A DNA stretch of 64,000 nt, taken from Paenalkalicoccus suaedae (GTDB lineage: Bacteria; Bacillota; Bacilli; Bacillales; Salisediminibacteriaceae). This document shows, one piece after another, positions 45,910-50,142 of this stretch (within the stretch, counting starts at the first letter, position 1; each line of letters opens with the position of its first letter). Position numbers and translations under genes: made by a program. The stretch lies in assembly GCF_006965545.2 (NCBI RefSeq), contig NZ_CP041372.2:1798001-1862000 (forward strand), given 5' to 3'. The notes beneath the pieces were generated by a model. The model made no database searches. It saw nothing but the letters and a program-made list of their open reading frames with translations, and was not told the origin of the DNA.

Positions 45910-45946
45910 GGTTGGGGAAGGGGCTTCGATGTTTTTTTGTCGGATA

Positions 45947-46046
45947 CGCGATTAAGGTGGAAATTCACGCAATTCAGGAGGGTATTCGCGCAATCAGCAC
46001 CGAAATATGCGCAGACAGAGACGAAATTCGCGCAATCAACAAAGTT
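45947..46046. repeat. 21-bp periodic array B (CGCRAT core)
   Basis: The core CGCRAT or CGCAGA starts at 45947, 45968, 45989, 46010 and 46031, always 21 bases apart, inside related AT-rich units (ATTCGCGCAATC...). A frame through it reads as heptads (IRAISTE, ICADRDE, IRAINKV) but starts without a good ribosome binding site, so it is taken as non-coding. Confidence 0.7.
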
Positions 46047-47353: not shown

Positions 47354-48268
47354 GTGAACAAATCAGTTACGTATATAATCTTACTAGGAGTCATGGTCAT
47401 TTGGGGCTTAAACGTCGTCGCAGTAAAATACTTAGTGGAGGCCTTCCCACCAGTAATGATGCAAGGTCTTCGCATCGGACTCGCAGGCGTCGTGACCATT
47501 ACACTCCTTTTCTTCTTAAAAGATTTACGAGCGATGACAAAGCGAGAATGGGGCTACACGCTACTCGCTGCCATGCTCGGACAGGTCGCGCATCACTCCT
47601 TACTTGCGATCGGACTTGTCAACACAACCGCAGGCAATGCCTCGCTCATACTCGGACTCATACCTCTTACAACAGCTATATTAACCATGATCTTTCTTGG
47701 TGAAATTGTGACGAGACTGCGTTTTTTAGGAATCGCTTTAGGATTTATAGGTGTTTTATTTATCGTACTTAGTCCGGAAGAAGGGACAGCTAGTGTATCA
47801 TCAGGTGACTTGCTCGTTCTCTTATCGATGATCGCCCAAGCATTCTCTTTTATCGTCATACGCAAAATTACCGTGACATTATCATCTAGGCAGATGACGG
47901 CAGTTATGCTGTTAGTTGGTTCGGTAAGTCTTATTTTGATTAGTTTAGTTTTAGAGCCTGCAAGCGCCTCTGCAATGACTAGCCCTAGCATAACGGTTTG
48001 GATTGTTTTTCTAACGTCTGCTATTTTTGCAACGGGACTTGGACATCTCGTCTATAATGGAGCGATCCAAAAAATTGGCGCGGGTCAAACAGCTGTATTT
48101 AATAATTTCGTGCCCTTTTTCGCGCTAATTGGCTCTTATTATTTTCTCGGCGAGCAGATTTTTGTGTCTCAGCTAATTGGATTTGTCTTTATCGTATTGG
48201 GGGTTCTGCTTGGAACGGGTTATATAGAAGCAAGATTTTTGGCGAGAAGACAAAAAAGACAGGTATAG
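47354..48268 (+). CDS. EamA/DMT-family permease
   Basis: Drug/metabolite-type exporter of 304 residues with ten helices in two EamA repeats. The first repeat opens YIILLGVMVIWGLNVVAVKY, and the second runs from VSSGDLLVLLSMIAQAFSFI to VFNNFVPFFALIGSYYFLGE. The frame opens at 47261, but GTG 47354 with AGAGAAGG at 47339-47346 gives a normal N-terminus. It is transcribed alone and ends in a terminator. Substrate unknown; relatives export amino acids or metabolites. Confidence 0.85.
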   Translation: MNKSVTYIILLGVMVIWGLNVVAVKYLVEAFPPVMMQGLRIGLAGVVTITLLFFLKDLRAMTKREWGYTLLAAMLGQVAHHSLLAIGLVNTTAGNASLILGLIPLTTAILTMIFLGEIVTRLRFLGIALGFIGVLFIVLSPEEGTASVSSGDLLVLLSMIAQAFSFIVIRKITVTLSSRQMTAVMLLVGSVSLILISLVLEPASASAMTSPSITVWIVFLTSAIFATGLGHLVYNGAIQKIGAGQTAVFNNFVPFFALIGSYYFLGEQIFVSQLIGFVFIVLGVLLGTGYIEARFLARRQKRQV

Positions 48269-48282
48269 ATATAGAAGAAGAG

Positions 48283-48319
48283 GCTAGGGCACATGTAGAT
48301 CATGGGTCCTAGCTTTTTT
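48283..48319 (+). terminator. Terminator of the DMT permease gene
   Basis: GCTAGG...CATG and CATG...CCTAGC arms (48283-48313) followed by T6. Confidence 0.85.
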
Positions 48320-48345
48320 ATGTTGGGTGAACGTATTTTGAATGA

Positions 48346-48562
48346 ACGAACTTTATTAGAGCTTCGATTAATCGGAATAGGGTTGAAATAAACCGGAACA
48401 GAGCTTCGATTAACCGAATTGGTGCTGTAATAAACTGGAACAGAGCTCCGATTAACCGAATTGGTGCTGTAATAAACTGGAACAGAGCTCCGATTAACCG
48501 GATTAAGGCTCCAATAAACCGGAATCGACCTTCAATTAACCATTTGCGCTCTCATTAACCAA
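48346..48562. repeat. 21-bp periodic array C (ATTAACCG / ATAAACYG core)
   Basis: Related cores begin at 48367, 48388, 48409, 48430, 48451, 48472, 48493, 48514 and 48535, exactly 21 bases apart, with a tenth at 48554 (19 apart). Two alternating unit types make a 42-bp higher-order repeat, copied almost exactly at about 48420-48490. All frames contain stops. The array lies between the DMT terminator and the amtB control region. Confidence 0.85.
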
Positions 48563-48745
48563 CCCTTATCTACACGTTTCCGCTGCGATTCATCAATGTC
48601 CTTCTGTAAAAGATAATCATCCACTCAATAAAGACAAATCATATAAAAAATATTCTGTTAATTTTAGCTCCTTCAAGTAAACGCTTCCACTCAACTGCCA
48701 CAATAATTACAGGATTTCACACAGTTTGGGACCTTTTGAATAGTC

Positions 48746-48796
48746 TGTTAAATTATCTGACAAATCGATTGTGTCAGAATTTTCAGCATGTATACT
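48746..48796 (+). promoter_or_regulatory. TnrA/GlnR box and promoter of the amtB operon
   Basis: TGTTAAATTATCTGACA (48746-48762) matches TGTNAN7TNACA exactly. TTGTGT (48769-48774) and TATACT (48791-48796), 16 bases apart, form the promoter. With a start near 48803 the box is centred about 49 bases upstream, the position from which TnrA activates nrgAB in B. subtilis. Expect induction under nitrogen limitation. Confidence 0.85.
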
Positions 48797-48858
48797 TGGG
48801 TTCATAGCTGATTGGCACATTTGCTAACAGAAAAAAATTCAAGAGGAGTGACGTAGGA

Positions 48859-50142
48859 ATGGAAGCAATCGCATTAATGGATAATTTATGGGTTATCATC
48901 GCATTTGCTCTAGTATTGCTGATGCAAGGAGGATTCATTCTTCTTGAAGCAGGATCTACACGAATGAAGAATGCCGGGCATATCGCCGGTAAAACGATTT
49001 TCACGGTGGCTATTGCCTCATTAGTATTCTGGGCAGTAGGGTATGGGTTTATTTATGGGGAAGGCAACGCATTTATTGGTTTATCTAATTTCTTCTATGG
49101 TGACTTTTCTTTTGAAGGAGAAGGCTTGGCAGGTTCGGTAGACTTCATTTTCCAACTTGCATTTGCTGCAATTGCATTAACAATTGCCTTCGGTGGTTTT
49201 GCAGAACGAGCTAAGCTATCCGCTTATGTTATCTTCGCTGTACTATTTTCAGCACTTATTTATCCGGTAGTAGCACATTGGGTATGGGGAGGCGGCTGGT
49301 TAGCAGGCTTAGGAAAGCAAGACTTCGCAGGTTCTACAGTAGTTCACTTAACAGGTGCAATGGCTGCATTAGCTGCAACAATTGTATTAAAGCCTCGTAT
49401 TGGTAAATTTAATGCAGATGGAACGTCAAACGACTTAGCTGGACATAACCAAGTATACACGGCTTTAGGTGTTCTAGTTCTTTGGGTAGGTTGGTTTGGA
49501 TTCAACGGTGGTTCTACATTTGGAGTAGACGGAGCATTCTTCGGCTACGTAGCACTTACTACTCAGTTAGCAGCAGCAGCGGGTGCGATTGCAGCCATGC
49601 TTATCGTATCAGCAATGACGGGACGTAACGATATTCCAACGATGTTAAACGGTGCGTTAGCGGGTCTTGTAGCTATCACTGCATCTACAGCATTTGTAGC
49701 GCCATGGGCGGCTGTTATCATCGGTCTAATCGGTGGACTTATCGTACACTTTGCAATGGTTATGTTTGACAAAGCAAAAATTGATGATCCAATTTTCGCT
49801 TTATCTGTTCACGGTGTAGCAGGCGTTTGGGGTACACTTTCAACAGGATTCTTTGCTACACCAGCACTTGCTGAAATGAACGGTGGTCAGGCTGGATTAT
49901 TCTACGGTGGTGGTCTATCACAGCTAGGAGTTCAATTAACTGGGGTTACCGTATCTGGACTTTACGCATTTGCAGTAGCATTCATTATCTTAAAAGTAAT
50001 GGACAAAGTAATGTCAGGTGGTATCCGAGTATCTGAAGAAGAAGAGCTATTAGGTCTTGATATGAGTGAGCACGGAAGCTATGGCTACCCAGAAAACATG
50101 GCACAGCCAGAGCCAGCTAAAACAGAAAAGCCGAGTGCCTAA
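48859..50142 (+). CDS. amtB: Ammonium transporter AmtB/NrgA
   Basis: Membrane ammonia/ammonium channel of 427 residues with 11 helices. It shows LLMQGGFILLEAGSTRMKN at the first helices, the twin pore histidines in VVHLTGAMAAL and SVHGVAGVWGTL, and FGFNGGSTF. The cytoplasmic tail (GIRVSEEEELLGLDMSEHG) carries the stretch that PII proteins contact in relatives. AAGAGGAG precedes ATG 48859. Unusually for the family, no glnK/nrgB PII gene follows; a nucleotidyltransferase gene starts three bases after the stop. Confidence 0.95.
   Translation: MEAIALMDNLWVIIAFALVLLMQGGFILLEAGSTRMKNAGHIAGKTIFTVAIASLVFWAVGYGFIYGEGNAFIGLSNFFYGDFSFEGEGLAGSVDFIFQLAFAAIALTIAFGGFAERAKLSAYVIFAVLFSALIYPVVAHWVWGGGWLAGLGKQDFAGSTVVHLTGAMAALAATIVLKPRIGKFNADGTSNDLAGHNQVYTALGVLVLWVGWFGFNGGSTFGVDGAFFGYVALTTQLAAAAGAIAAMLIVSAMTGRNDIPTMLNGALAGLVAITASTAFVAPWAAVIIGLIGGLIVHFAMVMFDKAKIDDPIFALSVHGVAGVWGTLSTGFFATPALAEMNGGQAGLFYGGGLSQLGVQLTGVTVSGLYAFAVAFIILKVMDKVMSGGIRVSEEEELLGLDMSEHGSYGYPENMAQPEPAKTEKPSA

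Follow-up and report, generated by a model that had tools for sequence, protein, structure and literature searches.

A ten-unit intergenic array upstream of amtB in Paenalkalicoccus suaedae belongs to a genome-wide class of arrays with a step of 20 or 21 bp

The window, a stretch of 64,000 nucleotides (C3:1798001-1862000 of the 4.04-Mb genome), holds an array of short tandem units between an EamA-family transporter gene and the ammonium transporter gene amtB. The features of the region are as follows.

45941..46046, unstranded: weaker 21-bp array with another core (CGCGCAATC-like), found by TRF, likely a further member of the class in the window
47393..48268, + strand: EamA-family transporter gene upstream of the array (start from a home-made gene finder; longest open reading frame from 47261)
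48278..48319, + strand: terminator-like hairpin with a T6 tail after the EamA gene (-22 kcal/mol, z -5.25)
48358..48561, + strand: array of ten core-bearing units, step 21 bp (last 19), from sequence and TRF
within 48358..48561, + strand: units alternating between type A (ATTAACCGAATTGGTGCTGTA) and type B (ATAAACTGGAACAGAGCTCCG)
48367..48542, + strand: nine cores in exact 21-bp register, starting at 48367, 48388, 48409, 48430, 48451, 48472, 48493, 48514 and 48535
48554..48561, + strand: tenth core, ATTAACCA, 19 bp after the ninth
48746..48762, unstranded: TnrA/GlnR-type box TGTTAAATTATCTGACA, apart from the array; sole match to that consensus in the 64-kb window
48859..50142, + strand: amtB, starting about 300 bp after the array

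The first nine of the ten cores follow one another at exactly 21 bp, eight times in succession. The core at 48367 is ATTAATCG, cores up to 48514 read ATTAACCG or ATAAACYG, and the degenerate cores are the first and the last two. TRF reported a period of 42 at 48358-48541 (4.4 copies, score 217) and a period of 21 at 48357-48541 (8.8 copies, score 104). The identity at lag 42 was 0.865 over 126 bp, compared with a maximum of 0.460, at any lag of 10-60, among 1000 dinucleotide shuffles of the intergenic sequence. Among lags 10-59, only 21 and 42 exceeded 0.46 over 126 bp in the 64-kb window. Coordinates, TRF and lag identity agree with an earlier note on this DNA, which had described nine cores every 21 bases followed by a spacing of 19, and the 42-bp superunit that it had read from the A/B alternation was confirmed. 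The weaker array at 45941-46046 is flanked by genes for a beta-lactamase-fold protein and an acyltransferase.

The ten-unit array starts some 40 bp past the EamA hairpin, which was missed by a stricter pattern scan (loops 3-8) and by another terminator scan, and it lies between this hairpin and the box at 48746-48762, which fits the TnrA/GlnR consensus perfectly. As amtB has such a box of its own, its control does not require the array. The position in the amtB upstream region would suit a regulatory platform for amtB itself, and the upstream regions of 2 of 57 amtB loci in relatives (L086 and L094) hold an array with a step of 20 or 21 bp within 500 bp of the gene, with other cores. Nevertheless, the same detector found none there in the other 55 loci, the box could explain the control, and the window array is just one among dozens, the others lying in other gaps. 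The specific link to amtB was not upheld, given this box and the ATTAWCCG family described below, which follows no orientation rule relative to genes. Regulation of amtB fits poorly and is highly unlikely as an explanation.

BLAST with the window array found 12 places in its own genome, itself included, and no match in 39 relatives. The pair pattern CGGNTWAT-N13-CGGNTWAT (at most one mismatch) gave 416 matches in the genome against 4 for the reversed control, and the triple pattern gave 328 against 0. At least 42 chains of the core ATTAWCCG (CGGWTAAT on the other strand), each with three or more cores, were catalogued from stretches around the listed matches; the count is 41 if slightly more distant chains are bridged. 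A second family, GGWWCAT, has a step of 20 bp and gave 221 matches against 0 for the control, all of them in this genome among 10 genomes. All array counts are lower bounds. The step between neighbouring perfect cores was 21 bp in 235 of 237 cases, and 20 bp in 130 of 132 and in 73 of 76. A further 20-bp array (L161, 6410-6490) has the palindromic core GCGTACGC, unlike the other 20-bp family.

The earlier note had proposed a genome-wide search for the 21-bp period. In 28 fixed-position stretches, which cover 560 kb of the genome and were not chosen for arrays, every step between 12 and 63 was scored for chains of four 8-mers, allowing up to one mismatch. The result was a sharp peak, with 9 chains at step 20 and 7 at step 21, and none at 13-17, 19 or 22-26; chains were counted irrespective of coding overlap, and two pairs (in L200 and L208) adjoin within one array region each. 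Other steps were 12 (2 chains), 18, 27, 30, 33 and 36 (1 each), 42 (3) and 53 (1). Coding repeats would be expected to give multiples of three, and 42 is a harmonic of 21. The window array belongs to a genome-wide class of arrays with steps of 20 or 21 bp.

Core and spacer conservation was compared in those ATTAWCCG arrays that have four or more cores and keep their register throughout. The core was perfect in 174 of 220 inner units, had one mismatch in 44 and two mismatches in 2. The identity between adjacent units was 0.94 in the core versus 0.36 in the spacer, and between next-but-one units 0.96 versus 0.82; the search by core that yielded these arrays inflates the core values, although detection did not depend on most units of the long arrays. 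Adjacent spacers are close to unrelated, the cores are constant and two-unit blocks recur. A weak extended consensus flanks the core. Alternation of A-rich and T-rich spacers was only a trend (19 mixed versus 14.7 expected among 36 arrays, p 0.066) and was rejected as a general rule.

That an exact step across diverged units points to constraint, as had been supposed from the window alone, is borne out for core and step together by the 20/21 peak and by the difference between core and spacer. Recent slippage followed by drift is not supported as a full account, as drift should not leave one and the same 8-bp element intact at dozens of loci. Ordinary minisatellites, formed by replication slippage and neutral drift, would be in keeping with the location of the arrays in gene-free DNA and with A/B dimers that recur as 42-bp blocks, as unequal exchange or slippage predicts. 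Slippage and drift alone are nevertheless poorly compatible with periods concentrated at 20/21, with one core at dozens of loci between nearly unrelated adjacent spacers, and with a step that for the same core is specific to the genome. Such an origin is considered improbable.

The nearest named relatives by AmtB are Salipaludibacillus and Alkalicoccus (82-86% identity, first eight loci). The exact ATTAWCCG triple at step 21 occurred 162 times in the P. suaedae genome, and 1 and 2 times in two of 248 other genomes of an order sample. A looser core with one mismatch gave 1 to 5 matches in 5 of 39 relatives. In genome G001, from the same family and another genus, the core GRACAAAY occurs at step 20 with 101 matches and none in 9 other genomes; neighbouring perfect cores in G001 are 20 bp apart in 92 of 97 cases.

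The same period scan in 12 relatives (1.16 Mb) gave 6 chains at step 20 and 1 at step 21, with none at 19, 22 or 23. These chains were confined to G001 and G014, two of the G001 chains probably being one array, and none was found in the sampled stretches of the other 10 relatives. Further steps included 12 (3 chains), 52 (3), 59 (1), 40 (2, the harmonic of 20) and several divisible by three. Around the 57 amtB loci, nearly all from Bacillaceae (630 kb), one chain had step 20 (Gracilibacillus boraciitolerans) and two had step 21 (Gracilibacillus timonensis and Alkalihalobacterium chitinilyticum); repeats of 51 and 52 bp were also present (2 each). A looser lag-identity scan of relatives (360 kb) was less sharp, with counts of 5 at lag 20, 7 at 21, 6 at 45 and 5 at 33.

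One core allowed the step to be compared between genomes. Triples of GGATAAA, with gaps allowing steps of 19 to 22, were found in 3 of 14 genomes. The step is 20 in G001, where the sum of two steps was 40 in 10 of 10 triples; in G008, congeneric with G001, the sum was 42 in 43 of 57 triples and 41 in 14, and the single triple in G027 had a sum of 42. Since the steps differ between G001 and G008, the step is a property of the genome more than of the core. Together with the 20-bp families, this change of step for one core argues for a fixed distance between neighbours rather than an exact helical face. The statement that all cores face one side of the DNA holds for 21 bp at 10.5 bp per turn and is inexact for the 20-bp arrays of the same genome. 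Selection for phase, as the earlier note had suggested, likewise stands as a constraint on core and step, while strict selection for a helical face is weakened by the coexistence of 20- and 21-bp families.

Shared sites were compared next to two genes that we presume from their sequences to be pcrB and ispG. Within 1.5 kb upstream of pcrB, arrays with a step of 20 or 21 bp were present in 4 of 12 genomes, with differing cores:

G001: step 20, core GGAYAAA
G008: step 21, core GGATAA
G018: step 21, core TATGCW
G017: step 21/20, core TTATGSAGA, spotted by eye and then checked

At the same site, G014 (L341, 430-1300) and G004 (L342, 1228-1440) have tandem repeats of 51-52 bp instead. Downstream of ispG, G001 alone among the 12 genomes had an array. 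When the 40-60 kb nearest the origin were compared in nine genomes, G001 had one 20-bp array and G008 none. This G001 array (L317, from 16917) is long and nearly perfect and follows a probable rRNA operon; its left flank is more than 90% identical to stretches of three other genomes.

Gene contexts were taken from a home-made gene finder based on codon usage. By this measure 2 of the 42 ATTAWCCG chains overlap a predicted gene and the other 40 overlap none. A coding heptapeptide repeat, in which 21 bp would equal seven codons, could point to the one frame that is open across the window array. Open frames are trivial for a 21-bp period, however, and together with the location of the chains the 20-bp step of arrays of the same kind (GGWWCAT and GRACAAAY) excludes coding repeats for the class; for the window array this reading fits poorly and is barely credible. 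Six viral contig stretches matched the triple pattern and look by eye like coding repeats of seven residues, and a phage origin was rejected. A search of plasmids gave no match.

By type of gap, 22 ATTAWCCG chains lie between co-directional genes, 13 between convergent and 6 between divergent ones, with 1 undetermined. Sampled intergenic gaps of at least 250 bp had similar shares (80 co-directional, 26 convergent and 18 divergent). In co-directional gaps, 12 chains read with the genes and 10 against them.

An element acting at the RNA level (3'-UTR, terminator-associated or antisense) with a post-transcriptional role was weighed against these data. In its favor, a terminator-like site lies upstream, in the ATTAWCCG direction, of 16 of the 42 arrays, the window array follows a strong hairpin, and the ATTAWCCG arrays are nearer to 3' than to 5' gene ends (medians of 129.5 versus 255 bp). 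Moreover, arrays of other families in co-directional gaps tend to read with the genes: 9 of 13 for GGAACATA, 8 of 12 for GGTWCAT and 7 of 8 for GRACAAAY in G001. Folding showed a small, consistent excess on both strands (mean z -0.81 and -0.79 over 32 arrays; lowest single values -2.7 and -4.4), and the units of the window array fold weakly (z -0.90 and -1.87). Nevertheless, the orientation of ATTAWCCG relative to genes is balanced, divergent gaps hold arrays too, and a search of window positions 48200-48900 against Rfam 15 gave one chance-level match of 19 bits, against a gathering score of 70. RNA structure was rejected, since the units fold only slightly better than controls, and an RNA-level element is quite improbable.

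Intrinsic curvature was calculated from wedge angles and set against composition-matched periodic controls. The 30 ATTAWCCG arrays were somewhat more curved than these (4 of 30 past the 5% tail), and the 27 GGWWCAT arrays were less curved. As a common cause curvature is doubtful, because not all families share it.

Orientation relative to replication was scored with the terminus of the P. suaedae genome placed by GC skew of samples at 1.86-2.0 Mb (1.93 used), so that arrays at 1925021, 1929687 and 1987650, near this terminus, have uncertain polarity. In G001 the skew placed it at 2.3-2.5 Mb (2.25 used), and the interval from 2.1 to 2.79 Mb contains none of the arrays counted. Orientation followed the leading strand in some families. 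Among arrays with at least three perfect cores, GRACAAAY did so in 18 of 18 (p 8e-6); with weaker matches included the count was 19 of 20 places, the array omitted before, at 1664924, reading the opposite way. The GGAACATA family followed it in 22 of 25 arrays (p 2e-4). By comparison, 9 of 25 GGTWCAT arrays (p 0.23) and 25 of all 41 CGGWTAAT arrays (p 0.21) did so, neither significant, and TGTSATAA had the opposite sign (0 of 5). In G008, 12 of 15 arrays outside the skew-placed origin interval of 0.5-1.0 Mb read with the leading strand.

For GRACAAAY, the effects of genes and replication cannot be told apart completely, as its arrays in co-directional gaps mostly read with the genes. The two can be separated for GGAACATA, for which all 13 arrays in co-directional gaps read with replication. 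Where both flanking genes run against replication, the array follows replication in 5 of 5 cases for GGAACATA and 4 of 5 for CGGWTAAT, and follows the genes in 3 GGTWCAT cases and 1 TGTSATAA case. When CGGWTAAT arrays were divided by spacer, those alternating between A-rich and T-rich spacers read with the leading strand in 20 of 23 cases and those with all-A spacers in 3 of 15 (Fisher 9e-5), a split made post hoc after the mixed polarity had been seen, on classes scored earlier.

The main rival explanation draws on this polarity. Core-dependent, strand-biased copying at replication forks, as a selfish or molecular-drive process, would fix the core and the 20/21 step through its own machinery and need no host function. 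It would account for genome-specific cores and steps, for several families per genome and for replication polarity in two or three of them. In addition, 99 of 114 arrays have their purine-rich strand as the leading strand, compared with 63% (P. suaedae) and 69% (G001) of other intergenic 200-bp windows; part of this excess may come from ordinary strand-biased mutation of spacers. Against this process, no candidate enzyme emerged, transposases of the Y1 (IS200/RAYT) type were not found in the array-rich P. suaedae genome, and the weak extended consensus around the core is more like a binding motif. Copying of this kind is possible, if somewhat unlikely.

With a probability of roughly 0.4, the window array is one of many dispersed, multi-copy platforms for one or more sequence-specific DNA-binding proteins, with a role at the level of the chromosome rather than of amtB. 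This is the best supported interpretation, given the constant core, free spacer, locked two-turn step and absence of a transcription rule for ATTAWCCG. Each unit of 20-21 bp, with its one conserved core of about 8 bp, would carry about one protein (or dimer) per two helical turns, so that neighbours could line up along the DNA. Of this picture, the cores, their step and their spread over the genome are observed, and the bound protein and its chromosomal role are inferred. The genome-specific cores suggest that cores and the cognate protein or proteins change together. Location mostly between terminators and promoters and the replication-tracking orientation of some families suggest a chromosome-level role, which might lie in nucleoid organisation, segregation or replication. 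To judge from the A/B pattern, unequal exchange probably expands the arrays and makes them homogeneous, frequently by two units (42 bp) at a time.

Several points speak against binding platforms. With several core families in one genome, there would have to be several proteins or one of great plasticity, and 20-bp steps do not hold all cores on one face. Polarity is uneven among families, and the G001 arrays in co-directional gaps mostly read with the genes. The ispG site has its array in a single genome, most sampled relatives had no 20/21 chain, and the conservation of the core is partly a matter of ascertainment. A wider proposal is rather doubtful: that the arrays form an undescribed class in Bacillaceae, with dozens to perhaps a hundred per genome, each a series of one core peculiar to the species at a locked step of 20 or 21 bp and often oriented by replication, in which core and step turn over together genome-wide in satellite-like concerted evolution, presumably through a co-evolving protein that organises or segregates the chromosome.

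Should the arrays prove to be platforms for a co-evolving protein, they would be the bacterial counterpart of satellite repeats with their binding proteins, and their DNA could serve as bait to pull down a factor that organises the chromosome. Should they come from copying, the step of that process would be fixed, unusually, at two helical turns, and in some families it would prefer one strand. Under both readings the class is clearly delimited, readily detected from its period and open to direct testing.

The abstract openings in the literature searched contained no description of such arrays. Pneumococcal BOX and RUP and staphylococcal STAR elements are likewise short, multi-copy, intergenic and lineage-specific (see also PMC3049150). 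Unlike these, the present arrays keep an exact tandem step of 20/21 bp in which the core is constant and the spacer free; one genome holds several core families, and some families show replication polarity. REP/BIME elements with their RAYT proteins are also dispersed intergenic repeats; the arrays differ in having no strong palindrome, and no hairpin-forming palindromic unit of the REP/RAYT kind was found in them. An origin from RAYT/IS200 elements was rejected and fits poorly, as none of the 11 candidates scored in the P. suaedae genome matched the Y1 transposase family (PF01797). Matches to Y1_Tnp were present in 9 of 9 other genomes given.

CRISPR arrays resemble the present ones in a constant short element, variable spacers and a constant step. 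Here, in contrast, the same spacer returns with every second unit, the constant stretch measures about 8 bp and each genome holds dozens of arrays. KOPS and SpoIIIE recognition sequences share an orientation by replication with some families; they differ from the arrays, which are exact tandem clusters with a core that varies by species and a polarity not found in all families. Plasmid iterons and the repeats of partition sites are direct repeats of about 20 bp, about two turns apart, on which one protein binds side by side. The arrays share with iterons direct repeats of about 20 bp at a constant two-turn step and differ in that dozens of them lie on the chromosome contig, rather than at one origin or centromere. 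A likeness of TTATCC to the DnaA box was also noticed.
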